From assembly GCF_003863365.1 (NCBI RefSeq), contig NZ_RQXT01000009.1, forward strand, positions 62,001 to 126,000: a stretch of 64,000 nucleotides of DNA, given 5' to 3'. The stretch is from Mesorhizobium tamadayense (GTDB taxonomy: Bacteria; Pseudomonadota; Alphaproteobacteria; Rhizobiales; Rhizobiaceae). The notes beneath the pieces are model-generated. The model saw only the letters and a list, made by a program, of their open reading frames with translations, made no database searches and was not told the origin of the DNA. The position numbers were made by a program, and so were the translations under genes. Position 1 is the stretch's first letter. Each line of letters starts with the position of its first letter. Positions 54,989 through 64,000 of this stretch are shown here, piece by piece.

Positions 54989-57900
54989 TTACTGCAGGCG
55001 GCCGCTGGCGTGGGCTAGCATGGTGTAGACCTTGCCGGTATCCGACGTCAGATAGGTCTGCGCCATGATGTTGTCGCGGTCGTTGCGCGAGACATCCTTG
55101 AGCAGCTTCTCGAAATCGTCGCAGTAGCGGTCGACGGCGGCGCGGAACTCGGCCTCGGTCTGATACTTGCGGCGGATCTCGTCGAAGGTCTGCTGGCCTT
55201 TCAGCGTGTAGAGGCGGCGCGTGAACACGTCGCGCTCGCCGCGGCGATAGCGGTTCCACAGCTCGATCGAGGCGTCGTGGTCGATGGCGCGCGCGATGTC
55301 GACGGACAACGAGTTGAGCGATTCCATAACATGCAGCGGCGAGCGCTGGGCGGGGGCCGCGCGCGGCGCTTCCGCCGGCGCCGCCGGCTTCAGCTCTTCC
55401 TCGCGCGAAGCGTTGGTCAGAAGATCACGCACCCACCCCCCCTGCGCCGTGCGGCCGTTCGGATCGCGGCGTGGCGCCTCTGCGGGACGCTCGAGATCGA
55501 GCGCGCCGCGCAGGGTCGTCTCGCCGAGCGGCGCCTGCGGGGTCTGGCGCTCCGGCTGAGGCTGCGGCGGCGCCGCCGGGCGGCGCAGCGGCTGCTCGGC
55601 GGGGCGGGCAGGCGCCTGCGGCGCGGGACGCAGGCTGCGGGGCTCGCCGGCCTCGCTGCTGCCGCTGCGGCCGGATTTCGCAACGATATCCGACAATTCC
55701 TTGAGCGCGTTGATCTGCTCGGAGACGGCGCGGCGGATAGCCGAGGTCGACTCCTTGGCTTCTTCCGGCATCTCGATGACGCCCTTCTTGAGTTCGGCGC
55801 GGGTGAGGTCGAGCTCGCTCTTGATGGAGCCCGCGGTGCGCCGCATCTCCTCGGTGGCATCGGCGAAGCGACGCGTCGCCGAATCGACGACATCGGCGAT
55901 GGCCGTACGGATCTTCTCCGCCGATTCCATCGTCCGGCCCTCGGCGTTCTGCATCGTCTGACCGACAAGGCTCTCGAAGGAGCGCATGACCTTTTCGAGG
56001 TCTTCCGACTTCTTGACCAGGCCGACGGCGAGGTCTTCCAGCGAGGACTGCCGCTCCAGCGTGTGCTCGAGATTGCTCTGCGCGGAGCTCAGCAGGTCCG
56101 AGGCGCTCGACAGCAGACGGCTGTGCTCGTCGAACTTGGTCGCGATCGAGGCGACCTCGCGCAACGTCGCCGACGACAGATCGGTGAGCCGCGTCGTGTT
56201 GGAATCGACGAGACGCGCCGAGCTGGCAAAGGTCTGGGCTGCCTTTTCCGTGGTGGTGGCAAAGCTCTGCGTGCTGCCGGTGAGGCGTTCCTCTACATGG
56301 CCGAGATTGACGGCCGCCTGGTCGATCAGCTGGCCGAGCTGGGCGCTGGAGGTGGTCATGCGGCCGATGAGGTCGGCAACGCTGTCGGCCAGCGTCGAGC
56401 GCGCGCCCTCGACCGCCGAAAGCGTCTCGGCGGTGCGGCTGGCAAGCGCGTTGACGAGATTTGCGTTTTCGCTGCGCAGCTTCTCGGCCGCCCGTTCGGT
56501 GACTTCTTCCATGCTCCTCTGAAGTTCCGAGCCGCCCTGGGCGAAGCGCTCGACCAGGGGGCGCGCCGTCTCGTCGAGGATCCTCGACATTTCGGCGGAG
56601 CGCGCCGCGAGCATGGTGTTGAGCTCGCGGGTGTTGGCGCCGATGGTCTTTGCCGCCTCGTTGGTGCTCTGGCCGATATGCTGGCCGACCGCCGTGAAGG
56701 TTTCGGCGATGACGTTGGCGCGCGAGATGAGCTGCGCTTCGGCGCCGGAGACCTGCTCGTTGAGCTTCTGGCCCATCGTTTCGGCGGTGTAGGCGAGGCG
56801 GTTCTCGACGCTCGCCACTTGCTCCTCGACGCGGGCCGCCGCAGCAGCGGCGCTCGAGGCCAGCCGCTCGTCGGCACCGGCCAGCGCCTGCTCGATCTCG
56901 CGGGCGTGGACGGCAAGTTCCTGACCGGTCTGCCGGGCACGATCGGCGACGCGCTGCTCGGTGGTGGCGAACGCGCCGACAATGGTGTCGGCATGCTCGC
57001 CGATGGTCGAAGTGCTGCTGGCGATGCGCGACACCAGGCGGTTGTCCGCGTCGTCGAAGATGCGGGCAATTTCGGACGCCCGCGACGACAATGCTTCCGA
57101 ACCCTCGGCAATGCGCGAGATCAGATGCTGGTCGGCGGCATCGAAGATGCGGCCGAGATCGGAGGCGCGTGCGGCCAGCGCTTCGGCCGATTCGGTGATG
57201 CGCATGCCCAGCCGCTCGTCGGCGCCCTCGAAGTTGCGCAGGATGTCGCCGGCGCGCGCGGCAAGCGACTGCGCCGTTTCGACTGCCCGAGCGACCAGCT
57301 TCTGGTCCGCGGCGTCGAAAGTGCCGGCGATCTCGCCAGCGCGCGCGGCCAGCTTGTCGGCGGTTTCCTCGGCGCGGGCCATGAGCGCGTTGGACGCATC
57401 GTCGGCGCGGGCCATCAGCATGCTGGAGGTGTCCTGGGCGCGCTCGTGCAGGCGGCGGTCGGCCTGCTCGAAGGCGTTGGCAATGTCTTCGGCCCTGGCG
57501 AGCAGCGCGGCCGAGGTCTGCTCGGCGCGTTCGGCGATCTTGCGGTCGGCGTCGCTGAAGGCGGCTCCGGCCTGCTCGTGCAGCGCGCTGGTGACTTCCA
57601 TCACCTTGTCGCGCAGCGCGCCGGCAACGAAGACGGCGGTCTTTTCGAGAACGCCGCGGACATTGTCGACGCCGGTCGAGAGCGCACGCTCCATGGTGCT
57701 GGCGCGCTCTTCGATGATGCCGGTCTGGCGGCTGAAGGCCTGCTCTATCTTCTCGACATCGGCCGAGATCGCCGCCGAGATGTCGCCGCTTTTGGCGGCG
57801 ATCTGGTCGATGTGGCCGGACACCGAACGGTCGACGTCCTTGCGCGCTTCGGCGAGCTTGGCGAGATCCTCCTCGAGGGCGCGAGCTAGCGTGTTGCGGC

Positions 57901-60900
57901 CTTCGGACAGTTTGCCGACATGGCCGGCAATGACCTCGTCGATTTCGGAGCGGCTTTCGGCCAACTTCTGCAGGTCGGCTTCAAGAGCGCGCTTGAGGAT
58001 ATCGCGACCCTCGGCGAGCTTCTCGACCTGGCCGGAGACCAGCCCATCGAGACCGGCGCGGCTCTCGGCCAGTTTGGCAAGGTCGGCTTCCAGGGCACGC
58101 TTGAGGATGTCGCGGCCTTCGGCGAGCTTCTCGACCTGGCCGGCGACCAGGCCGTCGATGCTGGAGCGGCTTTCGGCCAGCTTGGCGAGGTCGTCCTCCA
58201 GGGCCTTGGACAGCATCGCGCGGTCTTGCGAGAGACTGTCGGCGTGGGTCTGCATGAGGCCGCTGGCATTGGCCATGTCGGCATCGAGGGCGCGTGACAG
58301 CTCGGCGCGGTGGTCGGTGATCTTCTGCGAATGATCGACGATGGCGCCCTGGATGGTGTTGAGGTCCGCTTCCAAGGCCCGCTTGAGGATATCGCGGCCT
58401 TCGGCGAGCTTCTCGACCTGGCCGGCGACCAGGCCGTCGATCGAGGAGCGGCTCTCGGCGAGCTTCGCCAGATCGTCTTCGAGCGACTTCGACAGCACCG
58501 AACGATCCTGCACAAGCCGGTTCTGGTGATCGGATATCGCGCTGCCGACAGTCTGCAGGTCGGCCTCCAGGGCCTTCGACAGTTGAGCGCGCTCTTCCAC
58601 CAACTTGTCGGAGTGTCCCGCAATGGCGCCCTTGATCGTGTTGAGGTCTGCTTCGAGCGCGCGCTTGAGGATGTCGCGGCCTTCGGCGAGCTTCTCGACC
58701 TGGCCGGCGACCAGGCCGTCGATCGACGCGCGGCTCTCGGCGAGCTTGGCAAGGTCGGCCTCCAGCGTCTGCGACAGCAGGCTGCGGTCGTCCGCGAGCT
58801 TGCCGGCGTGACTGTCGATCAGGTCGCGGATGCCGCCGAGGTCGCTCTCCAGGGCGCGGCTGAGCTCGCCCCGATCCTCGGCGAGCTTGGTCGAATGGGT
58901 CTCGATCAGGCTCCTGATGCCGACGATGTCGGTCTCGAGCGCCTTGGCAAGCACCGCACGCCCTTCGGCGATCTTCTCGACCTGGCCGGCGACGAGGCCG
59001 TCGATCGAGGCGCGGCTGTCCGCCAGCTTGCCGAGATCGGCTTCCAGCGCACGCGCCAGAATGTTGCGGCCCTCGGCCAGCTTGCCAACATGGCCAGCGA
59101 CCATTTCATCAATCATCGTGCGGGCTTGCACGAGTTTGCCCGAGTCTTCGTTCAATGCCTGGGAGAGGCGGTTGCGACCCTCTTCGAGCTGCTCGAGATG
59201 GCTGCCCAGCGAAGCGTCGATGGCGGCGCGCGATTCGTTGACCTTGCGCAGGTCCTCTTCCAGGGCGCGCGAGATCAGATTGCGGCCTTCCGCCAGCTTC
59301 TGCACCTGGTCGGTGACCGCGGCATCGATTGCCGCGCGGCCCTCGGCAAATTTCGCCAGATCCTCCTGCATGGCGGCAGCCATGCGGTCGCGGCTCTCGG
59401 AAAGCTTGAGGCTGTGGTTCTCGACCGCCTCCTCGATGCCGACGCGGGCATCGGCCAGCCGTTGGATGTCGGCGTCGAAGGAACGCGACACGACGTGGCG
59501 GGCGGCCTCCATGCGTCCGGCGAAATCGGTGGCGCGGGCTTCGAGCATGGACGAGGTCGACGAGATGATGTCGGCCATATCCGCGCCGATCTGTGTCTTG
59601 CCCTGGTCGATCATCGCCGACAGCGTATCCTTGCTCTCGGCAAAGGTGTTGGCGATCTCGCGCGCACGTTCGACCAGAGTCTCGTTGATCTGGCGGGCAC
59701 GCGCCTCGAGCGCGGCGTTGAGCTTCTGCGTGCCGGTATCGAGCGCCTCGGCACGGGTCTGGAACTCGCTGATCAACGCTTGGCCGCGCTCGGCCAGCGT
59801 CCGCTCGATGCCGTTGAGGCTCGCTTCGAATTCGGAGTTTAGCGTGCGCGCCGCTCCGCCGAGCAGCGAGACCATGCCGCTGGTGCGGTCGTCGAGCAGG
59901 TCTGTCAGCGAGCGGGTGAGGCCGTCGGTGGTGTCGGTCAGCTTGGCGATGCGGGTGTCGAGCAGGCTGGCGAAGGCTTCGCCGGAGGTCGACAGGCGGT
60001 CGGTGATCGAATCGAGCCGGGTTTCGACCGAATCGAAGATCGACGTCGAGCTTTCGTTGATGCGATCGATCAGCGTGTCGCCGGAATTGTTGATCGTCAT
60101 CGACAGCTTGGTCGAGGCATTGAGGATCGAGTCGCGAATGATGTCGCTGGCGGCGCCGATCTCGTCCCGCAGCGTCTCATGGGCGCCATGGATCGAAGCG
60201 CGCACGCGTTCGGCATGGGTGACAACCGCCTCGCGCTCGCTGCCGAGGCCGTCGACCAGCGAGCGGATGCGGGCCTCGTTCTCGGAATAGGAGCGCTCGA
60301 TCTGGCTGACTTCGCTGTGGACGAGCGTTTCGAGCTCGACGGCGCGCGCCAGCGTGCGCTCGATGCCTTCGCCCATGGCCGCTACCTCGCGGCGAACGGC
60401 CTGGCCGATCATCATGACGCGGTCCTGGGCCAGGTTTTCCGGCTCGGCGAGGCGGAAGGCCACTTCGGTCATCGATTGCGCGGCAATGCGCATTTCTTGC
60501 GCGCGCCGGATCATCGCGGCGAATGCCCAGAACAGAATGACCGGGATGATCACCGCAACCGCCAGGCCGATCAGCTCGGGGCGGGCGAAGAACTGGTCGA
60601 AGGTGCGGATCTTCCAGATGCTCGGACCGAACAGAAGGTTGGCGAGGCCGCCGGCGCCTGCGATCCAGGCAATCGAAACGAACGCTACGACCCAGTAGAC
60701 GGTGCTCGACGCACGCCGGTTGAGGCTTTGCAAAAGCGTCCGGTAATCCTTCTGGCGATCGTCATTGGCGGGCGTGAAACCGGCCGGCTGCGAACCGCGC
60801 GATTCGGCCGGGCGCAGCTCCGCCGGCTTTGACTGAGGCGTTGCCTTGGCGGCCTGAGGCTCATTTGCCGGCTCGATTCTCTGGCTGCGGCCTTCACGCG

Positions 60901-61063
60901 CCAATTCGTCCGCGGCCGCCGAAATCTGGGCCTCGAGATCTTCCATCGACGCCGCCATGTCGAGCCCGCCGTCGTCGCCGTTGAGGTCGAGGTCAAGCGC
61001 CTTTTCCAGTTCCGCGGCTACGTCGCTCTCGAGAGATTTGGTCGTCGTCGGTTTCTTAGCCAT
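54989..61063 (-). CDS. Giant coiled-coil membrane protein, Growth Pole Ring (GPR)-like
   Basis: A 2024-residue protein. Two membrane segments near the N-terminus (VYWVVAFVSIAWIAGAGGLA at about 121-144, IGLAVAVIIPVILFWAFAAM at about 165-184) follow a Pro/Ala cytoplasmic part. Residues 535-1086 are a helical repeat array (K-L-A-E-[GS]-R units), about 1160-1330 a second array (AARAGEIAGTFDAADQKLVA type), then more helix, a Pro-rich linker and a conserved-looking C-terminal domain (RAIDHDASIELWNRYRRGER, FTRRLYTLKGQQTFDEIRRK). Length and design match GPR of Agrobacterium tumefaciens, which forms a ring at the growing pole and is needed for polar growth and rod shape. Orthology is inferred. Confidence 0.85.
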   Translation of the reverse strand: MAKKPTTTKSLESDVAAELEKALDLDLNGDDGGLDMAASMEDLEAQISAAADELAREGRSQRIEPANEPQAAKATPQSKPAELRPAESRGSQPAGFTPANDDRQKDYRTLLQSLNRRASSTVYWVVAFVSIAWIAGAGGLANLLFGPSIWKIRTFDQFFARPELIGLAVAVIIPVILFWAFAAMIRRAQEMRIAAQSMTEVAFRLAEPENLAQDRVMMIGQAVRREVAAMGEGIERTLARAVELETLVHSEVSQIERSYSENEARIRSLVDGLGSEREAVVTHAERVRASIHGAHETLRDEIGAASDIIRDSILNASTKLSMTINNSGDTLIDRINESSTSIFDSVETRLDSITDRLSTSGEAFASLLDTRIAKLTDTTDGLTRSLTDLLDDRTSGMVSLLGGAARTLNSEFEASLNGIERTLAERGQALISEFQTRAEALDTGTQKLNAALEARARQINETLVERAREIANTFAESKDTLSAMIDQGKTQIGADMADIISSTSSMLEARATDFAGRMEAARHVVSRSFDADIQRLADARVGIEEAVENHSLKLSESRDRMAAAMQEDLAKFAEGRAAIDAAVTDQVQKLAEGRNLISRALEEDLRKVNESRAAIDASLGSHLEQLEEGRNRLSQALNEDSGKLVQARTMIDEMVAGHVGKLAEGRNILARALEADLGKLADSRASIDGLVAGQVEKIAEGRAVLAKALETDIVGIRSLIETHSTKLAEDRGELSRALESDLGGIRDLIDSHAGKLADDRSLLSQTLEADLAKLAESRASIDGLVAGQVEKLAEGRDILKRALEADLNTIKGAIAGHSDKLVEERAQLSKALEADLQTVGSAISDHQNRLVQDRSVLSKSLEDDLAKLAESRSSIDGLVAGQVEKLAEGRDILKRALEADLNTIQGAIVDHSQKITDHRAELSRALDADMANASGLMQTHADSLSQDRAMLSKALEDDLAKLAESRSSIDGLVAGQVEKLAEGRDILKRALEADLAKLAESRAGLDGLVSGQVEKLAEGRDILKRALEADLQKLAESRSEIDEVIAGHVGKLSEGRNTLARALEEDLAKLAEARKDVDRSVSGHIDQIAAKSGDISAAISADVEKIEQAFSRQTGIIEERASTMERALSTGVDNVRGVLEKTAVFVAGALRDKVMEVTSALHEQAGAAFSDADRKIAERAEQTSAALLARAEDIANAFEQADRRLHERAQDTSSMLMARADDASNALMARAEETADKLAARAGEIAGTFDAADQKLVARAVETAQSLAARAGDILRNFEGADERLGMRITESAEALAARASDLGRIFDAADQHLISRIAEGSEALSSRASEIARIFDDADNRLVSRIASSTSTIGEHADTIVGAFATTEQRVADRARQTGQELAVHAREIEQALAGADERLASSAAAAAARVEEQVASVENRLAYTAETMGQKLNEQVSGAEAQLISRANVIAETFTAVGQHIGQSTNEAAKTIGANTRELNTMLAARSAEMSRILDETARPLVERFAQGGSELQRSMEEVTERAAEKLRSENANLVNALASRTAETLSAVEGARSTLADSVADLIGRMTTSSAQLGQLIDQAAVNLGHVEERLTGSTQSFATTTEKAAQTFASSARLVDSNTTRLTDLSSATLREVASIATKFDEHSRLLSSASDLLSSAQSNLEHTLERQSSLEDLAVGLVKKSEDLEKVMRSFESLVGQTMQNAEGRTMESAEKIRTAIADVVDSATRRFADATEEMRRTAGSIKSELDLTRAELKKGVIEMPEEAKESTSAIRRAVSEQINALKELSDIVAKSGRSGSSEAGEPRSLRPAPQAPARPAEQPLRRPAAPPQPQPERQTPQAPLGETTLRGALDLERPAEAPRRDPNGRTAQGGWVRDLLTNASREEELKPAAPAEAPRAAPAQRSPLHVMESLNSLSVDIARAIDHDASIELWNRYRRGERDVFTRRLYTLKGQQTFDEIRRKYQTEAEFRAAVDRYCDDFEKLLKDVSRNDRDNIMAQTYLTSDTGKVYTMLAHASGRLQ
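57806..59461 (-). repeat. Repeat array in the GPR-like gene (54-base and 33-base units)
   Basis: Encodes residues 535-1086. It parses without gaps into 27 units of 18 residues (pattern K-L-A-E-x-R-x-x-[IL]) and 6 units of 11 residues. A 94-residue super-unit (282 bases) recurs at residues 773-866 and 867-960 and begins again at 961. The best units are near-identical at DNA level (for example around 58080, 58160, 58390 and 58690), so slippage or recombination could change the copy number. Confidence 0.85.
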
Positions 61064-61226
61064 GCCTTCGCTACCCTGTACTAGCTGCCGCGGGACTTAT
61101 GATTTTGGCCTGATTCTGGCTTGTCTGGTCCCAGACAGGAGGCTGAAAATGGACGTTCGTATCGTAATGACACACTGGGGTAAAGAAAACATGCATTCCG
61201 GGCGATACGTAAAACTTTAAATATAA

Positions 61227-61289
61227 GGTTAACGGAGGCGTGATTTGGGCTGCCTCCGTGACAACATTTTTCCCTGGCAACCGTTAACC
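61227..61289 (+). promoter_or_regulatory. Two overlapping, mutually exclusive inverted repeats in the Hpt leader
   Basis: GGTTAACGG (61227-61235) pairs with CCGTTAACC (61281-61289). ACGGAGGC (61232-61239) pairs with GCCTCCGT (61252-61259). Both are perfect, and they share bases 61232-61235, so RNA can form only one fully. This is the form of an attenuator switch. Alternatively the TTAAC-rich ends may be protein binding sites. Confidence 0.5.
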
Positions 61290-61293
61290 CGAT

Positions 61294-61318
61294 GGCGACG
61301 GGGATCGCCTATTTTTTT
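61294..61318 (+). terminator. Intrinsic terminator in the Hpt leader, first
   Basis: GGCGA (61294-61298) and TCGCC (61305-61309) form a short stem followed by TA and seven T. It is upstream of the Hpt gene, so a transcript from further left should end or be attenuated here. Confidence 0.7.
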
Positions 61319-61336
61319 GGCGGCTGACCGCCTTTT
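61319..61336 (+). terminator. Intrinsic terminator in the Hpt leader, second
   Basis: GGCGG (61319-61323), loop CTGA, CCGCC (61328-61332), followed by TTTT. It begins one base after the T tract of the first terminator and ends just before the AGGAG of the Hpt gene. Confidence 0.55.
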
Positions 61337-61348
61337 GTAGGAGTTGCA

Positions 61349-61723
61349 GTGCGTATGCGTGGCGAAAGTGGAGTTGCGTTTTCCATGCCCGGCGGCGACG
61401 TGTCGGGGACGGCAGGTTCGCGACCTGTGGATTTGGCCCATCTTGCGCGGCAGACGATGGACGATCGCGCGCTCGAGCAGGAAGTGCTGGCGATGTTCGT
61501 GCAGCAGGCGCTTTCGGTGCGCGACAAGATCCTCGAAGCCGATGCCAAGGAGCGGGTGCTCCTGGCGCACAGCCTGAAGGGCTCGGCGTGCGGCATAGGG
61601 GCCTTTGCCGTCGCCGAATGCGCGGCAGTCATCGAAAAGCAGCCCGAGGACGCCCGCACCCTGAAAAAGCTTGGGGTGCTGATCGAGGAAGTGCGGGACT
61701 TCATCGCCGCCATCAGCCGCTGA
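61349..61723 (+). CDS. Hpt-domain (histidine phosphotransfer) protein
   Basis: A 124-residue protein with a single Hpt domain (about residues 28-124). The phosphorylated His is in VLLAHSLKGSACGIGAFAVA, preceded by LEQEVLAMFVQQALSVRDKI. Such proteins pass a phosphoryl group between response-regulator receivers in a phosphorelay; the partner kinase is not in the window. Start GTG 61349 lies 5 bases after AGGAG; ATG 61355 is an alternative. It is divergent from the GPR-like gene and preceded by a structured leader with tandem terminators, implying regulated expression. Confidence 0.88.
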   Translation: MRMRGESGVAFSMPGGDVSGTAGSRPVDLAHLARQTMDDRALEQEVLAMFVQQALSVRDKILEADAKERVLLAHSLKGSACGIGAFAVAECAAVIEKQPEDARTLKKLGVLIEEVRDFIAAISR

Positions 61724-61804
61724 AACCTCGTGCTTGAGAAGATTCGAGCGACGCGCTTCCAGCCCGCCGCCGCGCCTCGGCGCCGGCGAACAGCCACCTT
61801 CTGA

Positions 61805-61827
61805 AAAACGCCATTTGGTGGCGTTTT
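61805..61827. terminator. Bidirectional-looking hairpin after the Hpt gene
   Basis: AAAACGCCA (61805-61813), loop TTTGG, TGGCGTTTT (61819-61827): a perfect 9-bp stem with A and T flanks, 82 bases after the Hpt stop. Confidence 0.75.
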
Positions 61828-61837
61828 CCCGCCGCAG

Positions 61838-61865
61838 TTGACTTGTGCGGTGGAGTGATTATCTC
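61838..61865 (+). promoter_or_regulatory. Sigma-70-type promoter before the ferredoxin gene
   Basis: TTGACT (61838-61843) and TATCTC (61860-61865) separated by 16 bases, 24 bases before the ferredoxin ATG. It matches the housekeeping consensus moderately; the -35 is strong. Confidence 0.5.
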
Positions 61866-61889
61866 CGCTGCGACTCCCTCAGGTGACCA

Positions 61890-62210
61890 ATGACCAAGCT
61901 GACTTACATCGCCCATGACGGGACCCAATTCGACGTGGAAGCCGAAAACGGCTCGACCGTCATGGAAAACGCGATCCGCAACGCGGTGCCCGGCATCGAG
62001 GCGGAATGCGGCGGCGCATGCGCCTGCGCGACCTGCCATGTCTATGTCGACGAGGCTTGGACGGCCGAAGTCGGCGAGCCGGAGGCGATGGAGGAGGATA
62101 TGCTGGATTTCGCCTACGAGGTCCGGCCGAACTCGCGCCTGTCCTGCCAAATCAAGGTGCGCGACGCGCTCGACGGGCTCGTCGTCCGGGTGCCCGAACG
62201 CCAGGGCTGA
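61890..62210 (+). CDS. [2Fe-2S] ferredoxin, adrenodoxin type
   Basis: A 106-residue ferredoxin. The four cluster cysteines are in [17 protein letters not shown] (C-x5-C-x2-C) and RLSCQIKV. The surrounding pattern ([36 protein letters not shown]) is that of adrenodoxin/putidaredoxin-type proteins. It could serve P450s or Fe-S and heme pathways. The next gene encodes a ferredoxin reductase-like flavoprotein, the likely electron donor. Confidence 0.94.
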
Positions 62211-63335
<1,125 letters not shown>

Positions 63336-63340
63336 TGCCG

Positions 63341-64000
63341 TCATTCGGCGAGCACGGGCGCGGCCTGCTCGTCCTTGCCGCGCAGCGGCTTTTCCGGCAT
63401 CAGCGCCAGCGCGATCAATGCCAGGACGAGCGTGATGCCGGCGGTGAGGAAGATCATCACGAACGGCATCGCAGATGTCAGCTCGATATGCGTCTGCGAG
63501 CCCTCGGCTGAGAGCGGCAGGCCGTAGCCGAGCGCGACGGCCCCGAGCAGGGCAACGCCAAGCGCGCCGCCCAGCGAACGCAGGAACGTCAGGACGCCGG
63601 TGGCGACGCCGAGATGGGCGCGATCGACCGCGTTCTGGACCGAGACGGTGCTGACCGGGAAGGTCGTGCCGCTGCCCAGGCCGATGAGGGTCGTCAGGAT
63701 TTCGACTTCGAGCAGCGAGGCTTGTCCCGCGATGGCGCTGAGCACGCCGATGCAGACGATCGCCAAGATGACGCCGACCATGGCGATGCGCTTGTAATGA
63801 ACGAAGCGCGGAATCATGCGGCCGCTGAATGTGGCGCCGGCGACGGTGCCGAGCAGGAGACCGAGCATGGCGGTGCCGGATTCGCTGACCGAGAGCCCGA
63901 CGACCGACTGCAGATAGACCGGCAGGTAGACCGAGGCGCCGATGTTTGCCGCCTGCAGCAGGAACATCGACAGCGTGCCGGCGAGCACGATCGGATTGCC
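63341..64000 (-). CDS. MFS transporter, C-terminal part (cut by right edge)
   Basis: About 219 codons of a DHA2/EmrB-like drug-type transporter, ending at 63341. Segments include YLPVYLQSVVGLSVSESGTA, MLGLLLGTVAGATFSGRMIP, ILTTLIGLGSGTTFPVSTVS, GVATGVLTFLRSLGGALGVA and VMIFLTAGITLVLALIALAL. The N-terminal half lies beyond the window. A 14-member efflux MFS is the most likely group; substrate is unknown. It is convergent with the ferredoxin reductase gene, with only 5 bases between the coding ends. Confidence 0.9.
   Translation of the reverse strand, partial: GNPIVLAGTLSMFLLQAANIGASVYLPVYLQSVVGLSVSESGTAMLGLLLGTVAGATFSGRMIPRFVHYKRIAMVGVILAIVCIGVLSAIAGQASLLEVEILTTLIGLGSGTTFPVSTVSVQNAVDRAHLGVATGVLTFLRSLGGALGVALLGAVALGYGLPLSAEGSQTHIELTSAMPFVMIFLTAGITLVLALIALALMPEKPLRGKDEQAAPVLAE

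Follow-up and report, generated by a model that had tools for sequence, protein, structure and literature searches.

The intergenic region 61064-61348 of the window, as we call the whole stretch of 64,000 nucleotides analysed here, probably consists of two DNA modules that together form a divergent regulatory region. The predicted promoter of an hpt gene would be activated through a TTAA box, with a CtrA-type regulator as the leading candidate, and the hairpins would be mostly by-products. The region lies between a minus-strand gpr/rgsE-like gene and a plus-strand single-domain hpt gene. The two modules are conserved among relatives, keep a fixed phasing and can be separated from each other, as comparison of the aligned loci indicates. 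Papers are cited by PMC number, each for the portion available.

Locus and genomes compared

The flanking genes and the start region of hpt are as follows.
54989..61063, minus strand: gpr/rgsE-like gene of 2024 aa, an open frame divergent from hpt
61340..61343, plus strand: GGAG, likely ribosome binding site of hpt, from the sequence
61349..61723, plus strand: hpt gene, single-domain histidine phosphotransfer protein, Pfam Hpt (PF01627) with E 6e-7

The product of the minus-strand gene has about 2000 aa and an apolipoprotein A1/A4/E domain (PF01442, E 1e-25, score 91 against a cut-off of 90), a domain likewise described for GPR/RgsE (PMC7327166), and it was assigned to this family from its size and domain. 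The Hpt product showed both the PF01627 profile and a conserved histidine, H74, invariant in 13 aligned sequences. Both Pfam matches agree with the divergent GPR-like and Hpt genes named in the preliminary description. The start codon of hpt is more likely ATG at 61355 than GTG at 61349, judging from sequence, and ATGCG was found in the start region (61349-61357) of 68 of the 84 genus loci. A 2Fe-2S ferredoxin gene lies downstream of hpt in the window (61890-62210).

Hpt was detected in all 146 genomes of the genus (Mesorhizobium) and in 211 of the 247 genomes of the family sample. The nearest named relative according to this protein was M. loti UFLA 01-765 (96% identity), records very near the window being possibly excluded. 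We read the regions of 84 of the 146 genus genomes, window included, together with loci from other genera, comprising 34 that share the gene order, one in which it differs (G177) and 20 more distant; these genomes were chosen by hand and are not a random sample. L001, a duplicate of L002, was dropped before counting, and L115 (the G177 locus) was left out of the family alignment. The divergent gpr-hpt order was present in 119 of 120 loci (L001 and L002 being the same locus) and in all 11 of the more distant regions checked for gpr. Of the 36 family genomes that gave no Hpt match, 14 were checked. The close clade is defined as the 14 loci, window included, with an Hpt identity of at least 88%. 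It must be noted that all expectations from shuffled sequences ignore the relatedness among loci.

The gpr-side module

Three conserved elements lie on the gpr side of the region.
61064..61084, minus strand: conserved block immediately upstream of the gpr start codon, with at least 95% conservation in 20 of 21 columns of the 84 genus rows and in 7 of 21 columns of the 34 family rows
61157..61198, minus strand: gpr core element TTTACC-N12-TACGAT, with TTTACC at 61179-61184 and the candidate -10 TACGAT at 61161-61166
61203..61234, no strand assigned: AT-rich gpr-linked box with TTAA-N8-TTAA (61217-61232), holding most of the left arm of inverted repeat I4 (see below)

The last two elements form block A, the left module (61157-61234), which would serve gpr, read the opposite way from block A. 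Conservation of at least 95% was found in 65 of its 74 columns in the genus (37 of 42 in 61157-61198 and 28 of 32 in 61203-61234) and, in the family, in 12 of 42 and 20 of 32 columns, respectively. TTTACC-N12-TACGAT occurred on the gpr strand of 84/84 genus and 24/34 family loci, and TTAA-N8-TTAA in 84/84 and 34/34, while shuffled sequences gave about 1 and 0.3. At 0-1 mismatch, a 17-base core of the gpr box was found once per genome, at the gpr-hpt locus, in 12 of 12 genomes; two mismatches added three further places in the 12 genomes, with control counts of up to 2. Across the order, the 24-base gpr box was matched at no more than 3 mismatches in 10 of 297 genomes, eight of them in the genus; the remaining two (G441 and G637) matched at 3 mismatches, reversed controls also gave two matches, and no match appeared in five other genomes of the same family within the 297-genome sample.

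Two further observations concern block A. CGTATCG and CGATACG constitute a spaced inverted repeat within it (61157-61209), and a GTATCGTA-type core was retained in 16 of the 20 distant loci. In addition, 61139-61220 holds a 23-codon frame, equipped with a good ribosome binding site (MDVRIVMTHWGKENMHSGRYVKL) and convincing at first sight in the window, but relatives do not preserve it in frame. The idea that block A is itself a 23-codon gene (61149-61220), conserved and served by a ribosome binding site of its own, has a negligible probability: the frame is open in the window and AGGAGG precedes its ATG, but an in-frame ATG was present in only 48 of 118 loci (one of the 34 loci from other genera), a stop came first in 38 of 118, and codons such as CGT ATC GTA showed, by eye, almost no synonymous change. 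This small ORF was rejected as a gene, its start and frame not being kept across the 118 loci.

The same conservation could be explained by a small RNA gene located upstream of hpt and ending at the terminator-like hairpins T1 and T2 described below. This reading, which the preliminary description had offered, would account for a segment (61157-61234) conserved far above the neighbouring bases in the genus and for a 17-base core confined, at 0-1 mismatch, to this locus. We nevertheless regard it as very improbable, given that the conserved block stops before the variable middle and T1/T2, and that the box keeps its place ahead of gpr in loci with a different right side. Furthermore, Rfam gave no match at gathering score in the whole window, and in 61000-61450, at E values up to 5, two low-scoring matches of virus or phage type, far below the cut-offs. 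RNAalifold, run on five stretches, on both strands and on genus and family alignments, gave z values of -0.8 and -1.8 for block A in the genus and nothing in the family on either strand.

Separation of the two modules

In G177, hpt stands beside another gene and carries a TTAACG box followed 21 bases later by TAGCGT, while gpr lies about 10 kb from hpt and retains block A next to a different neighbour. A second GTTAAC is located 64 bases from the gpr box of this genome, so gpr may account for some of the box pair. Of 14 Hpt-negative family genomes checked, 13 carry gpr, and 7 of these 13 have TTTAAA-N6-GGTTAAC upstream of gpr in a locus that lacks an hpt match (for three of the seven, the gpr match begins about 90 residues in, so the exact distance of the box is uncertain). 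An intact hpt-side module was found in none of the seven genomes with a gpr box and no detectable Hpt; L274 has TTTGTCCACA without TTAAC. The gpr box was not found in the other six gpr-bearing, Hpt-negative genomes, one of which, L281, gave a weak Hpt-like match (E 5.7e-5). We also observed that L274, L275 and L276 have no hpt match to the right of the gpr box, where the longest frame resembles, by eye, the 2Fe-2S ferredoxin of the window; they look as if hpt had been lost. At the level of sequence, then, the gpr-side and hpt-side modules are separable, the separation of hpt from gpr itself having been seen in one genome (G177).

The hpt-side module

The second module is located on the hpt side.
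61284..61315, plus strand: hpt promoter module, TTAACC (61284-61289), 20 bases and the -10 TATTTT (61310-61315), recognized by phased motif conservation

The spacing from TTAAC to TANNNT was counted in 81 genus loci, leaving out three without a second TTAAC. TTAACN-N20-TANNNT was present in 71 of them, to which four with N21 are added (75 in total), and in 21 of the 34 family loci, with six more at N21 (27 in total). Among the remaining spacings between 10 and 31, there were one genus match (25) and four family matches (15 twice, 19 and 31). The usual distance from a -10 box to the transcription start is 6 bases (PMC8407463), so that a -10 at 61310-61315 predicts a start of hpt near 61321-61324 and places the TTAA box near -38. 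As a point against this reading, a simple sigma-70 scan called no promoter in 61064-61348. The right module (61284-61315) would serve hpt, with TTAACC taking the place of a normal -35 element. Because TTAACC stands where the -35 would be, 20 bases from TANNNT, a TTAA-reading activator probably recruits RNA polymerase here; the leading candidate is CtrA or another response regulator of its type.

Searches of 12 genomes with an exact 16-base hpt-box pattern found matches in eight, always at this locus (the genome of the window itself gave none), and one match in a reversed control. The hpt TTAAC box is followed by RTCCAY in 30/34 family, 40/84 genus and 2/20 distant loci, and by the full RTCCACA in 18/34, 10/84 and 1/20, respectively; this part is missing from all 14 close loci, window included, and from 18 of the 20 distant ones. 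Upstream of hpt, GTTAACCAT was found in nine of the 20 distant loci. The gap between the two TTAAC boxes (61229-61284) was 54 in 67 of the 84 genus loci and 66 in three. As a side observation, gaps in the family include 44, 65-67 and 73, roughly in steps of helical turns, but also 57, 58, 62 and 70.

Inverted repeats and terminator-like hairpins

Four potential stems overlap the right half of the region.
61227-61235 / 61281-61289, plus strand: inverted repeat I4, arms GGTTAACGG/CCGTTAACC, perfect, two facing GTTAAC boxes
61232-61239 / 61252-61259, plus strand: inverted repeat I5, arms ACGGAGGC/GCCTCCGT, perfect
61294-61309, plus strand: T1, terminator-like stem followed by TATTTTTTTG, a terminator-pattern match inside the hpt module
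61319-61332, plus strand: T2, terminator-like stem followed by TTTTG, a terminator-pattern match where the hpt mRNA is predicted to begin

These stems were the basis of the preliminary description, and its observations on them were accurate: I4 and I5 are both perfect and have 61232-61235 in common, and both T1 and T2, its tandem terminators before hpt, fit the terminator pattern. It had proposed from them either attenuation before hpt or the small RNA considered above. With attenuation, a leader RNA started upstream of 61227 would fold I4 or I5, and the choice would decide whether T1/T2 stop transcription before hpt. Several findings speak for such a mechanism. The two overlapping perfect repeats exceed chance for so short a stretch: when 61190-61348 was shuffled 500 times, 0.4% of the shuffles held two repeats of at least 8 bases and 1.6% a perfect repeat of at least 9 with a loop of no more than 60. 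The full T1 stem is kept in 12 of the 14 close loci. An alignment-free scan of the last 90 bases found terminator-like hairpins in 37 of the 84 genus loci, where shuffled sequences gave 10.4 (sd 2.6), and two or more in 3 genus loci against 0.5 expected; all 14 close loci had one or more. This excess in the genus speaks against the promoter reading. It is not counted as attenuation, since the genus loci share ancestry and the T-run that follows T1 coincides in part with the -10 of hpt, but these two points do not fully dispose of it.

Against attenuation stands, in the first place, the lack of conserved pairing. The preliminary description had suggested looking for covariation of the leader across Mesorhizobium and had named missing conservation of the pairing as grounds for refutation. 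In the genus, the full stems of I4 (all 9 bp), I5, T1 and T2 were found in only 25, 4, 27 and 7 of 84 loci, and in none of the 34 family loci; the full T1 stem is thus missing from 57 genus rows. The four loci with I5 are all among the 14 closest and the seven with T2 are likewise in the close clade (7/14), and I5 seems to have arisen by chance in the clade of the window. Paired fractions for I4/I5/T1/T2 were 0.86/0.61/0.69/0.41 in the genus against 0.86/0.59/0.64/0.36 expected under independence, and 0.73/0.29/0.47/0.28 in the family against 0.73/0.30/0.45/0.26. I4 and I5 are therefore at or within 0.02 of independence and all four stems within 0.05, with T1 and T2 paired slightly above expectation in the genus. 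Conserved or covarying, mutually exclusive I4/I5 pairing was absent across the 84 genus and 34 family loci. None of the 14 columns of T2 reached 95% conservation, and T2 (mean majority 0.49) and the hpt leader (0.55) were the least conserved of ten segments in the genus.

Moreover, terminator-like hairpins in the family were present in 1 of 34 loci against 1.9 expected, and 59000-64000 of the window contains three such sites, T1 and T2 among them, against 4.0 expected. RNAalifold returned no consensus structure for T1/T2 in either alignment. In the genus it gave a 3-bp helix in the I4 span (z -3.5, or -2.9 over a longer span) and a minus-strand fold of the gpr leader (z -5.0), neither of which is kept in the family. 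The family minus-strand signal in the I4 span corresponds to the pairing of the two GTTAAC palindromes, and its z has no meaning, the shuffles having shown no variation. As a single strand, the sequence folds with mild stability (z -1.69, 13 of 200 shuffles being as good), and the best structure includes I5 and T2 and leaves out I4 and T1.

Finally, the gene on the left is divergent, so there is no read-in, and the phase-locked -10 comes after I4, I5 and the T1 stem. The start predicted from it falls inside T2, downstream of I4, I5 and T1 but upstream of 61336, the position beyond which a start would have refuted the preliminary reading. Taken together, these comparisons make attenuation before hpt quite unlikely, and the proposal of a regulated or small RNA ending before hpt did not hold up, its pairing being unconserved and its T1/T2 structure not recovered by RNAalifold. 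Under the divergent promoter reading, the hairpins would instead follow from the facing GTTAAC palindromes in the case of I4 and from local sequence in the case of I5, T1 and T2. In this regard, GTTAAC is its own reverse complement, and any two copies of it pair automatically.

Candidate regulators

The preliminary description had noted that TTAA-N8-TTAA at 61217-61232 is near but not equal to the CtrA consensus with N7, and this was borne out across relatives: N8 spacing was found in 118/118 loci and the exact full site TAA-N7-TTAAC in 0/118. CtrA consensus motifs have N7 spacing (PMC3616915, PMC7200025). This constant departure, together with a 17-base core unmatched elsewhere in 12 genomes at 0-1 mismatch, leaves it possible, although we lean the other way, that the same divergent promoters have TTAA boxes read by a regulator other than CtrA. 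On the other side, TTAA half-sites suffice for CtrA in Caulobacter, and activator-class half-sites are found there near -35 (PMC4287350). A box near -38 of the predicted start was found in 75/81 genus and 27/34 family loci, and the hpt box thus fits, by its position, an activator-class half-site. CtrA sites with one mismatch to the N7 motif exceeded the shuffles (84/84 genus loci, 20.4 expected; 29/34 family loci, 9.7 expected), and the occurrence of GTTAACCAT in distant loci points the same way.

With respect to DnaA, motifs such as ATCCACA and GTCCACA are located upstream of some Caulobacter cell-cycle promoters, and the RTCCACA after the hpt box matches these motifs (PMC4287350). The DnaA box TTATCCACA (consensus from PMC8203912) was absent from all 84 genus loci, window included, and present in 15 of 34 family loci (0.1 in shuffles). 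In many relatives, DnaA could supply a second input to the hpt promoter. GANTC occurred in 71/84 genus loci (45.4 expected) and 15/34 family loci (15.5 expected). The CenR-type motif TGA-N8-TGA (PMC9275681) was found in 36/84 (4.9 expected) and 1/34 (1.6 expected), respectively, and in the window it stands at 61100, within the variable part of the gpr leader. The available portions of PMC10746171 and PMC10538546 offered no usable motif. Cell-cycle control of the gpr-hpt region, which the preliminary description had put forward, is a plausible hypothesis.

A wider conjecture can be put forward, although we consider it unlikely: an orphan Hpt and the polar-growth ring protein GPR would be kept together throughout the family behind a shared, cell-cycle-timed region of CtrA/DnaA type, and this Hpt would be the missing relay from an orphan hybrid kinase controlling cell shape, such as RdsA, to polar growth. 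For RdsA of Rhizobium etli, no Hpt was found in the vicinity, according to the portion of PMC9022086 available. Were CtrA or DnaA to act at this locus, both the polar-growth ring and a little-known phosphorelay protein would have their timing coupled to the cell cycle in a large part of the family. A tempting RNA reading is replaced by a testable promoter map, with bases for gpr, bases for hpt and the base changes that would discriminate between the RNA and promoter readings.

Comparison with known systems

Leader-RNA attenuators consist of overlapping hairpins followed by a hairpin with a U-run. The window has such a layout, but its pairing is unconserved, and transcription is predicted to start past the competing hairpins. 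EcpR1 (PMC4414408), a cell-cycle small RNA of alpha-rhizobia, is alike in being rhizobial and linked to the cell cycle; the likeness is by description and not by sequence, and no sign of a conserved structured RNA was seen at our locus.

GPR of Agrobacterium and RgsE of Sinorhizobium meliloti (SMc00190) are polar-growth genes whose products resemble that of the window in large size and in apolipoprotein A1/A4/E similarity. The portions of the GPR/RgsE literature available do not describe the regulatory region or a neighbouring Hpt, and a literature search found no paper on this Hpt. The CtrA sites of S. meliloti (TAA-N7-TTAAC) have the TTAAC half-site in common with the gpr-hpt region (PMC3616915). 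One of five verified sites in that species departs from N7 and has a spacing of 6, whereas the spacing conserved in our 118 loci is 8 (PMC3616915).

The CtrA half-site promoters of Caulobacter are similar to the gpr-hpt region in their TTAA half-site near -35; they differ in that the start of hpt is predicted here from sequence and that the window's clade lacks the DnaA-like part (PMC4287350). Divergent promoters with CtrA-type boxes are an already known kind of region, and the constancy of such a promoter at the gpr-hpt pair may be new.
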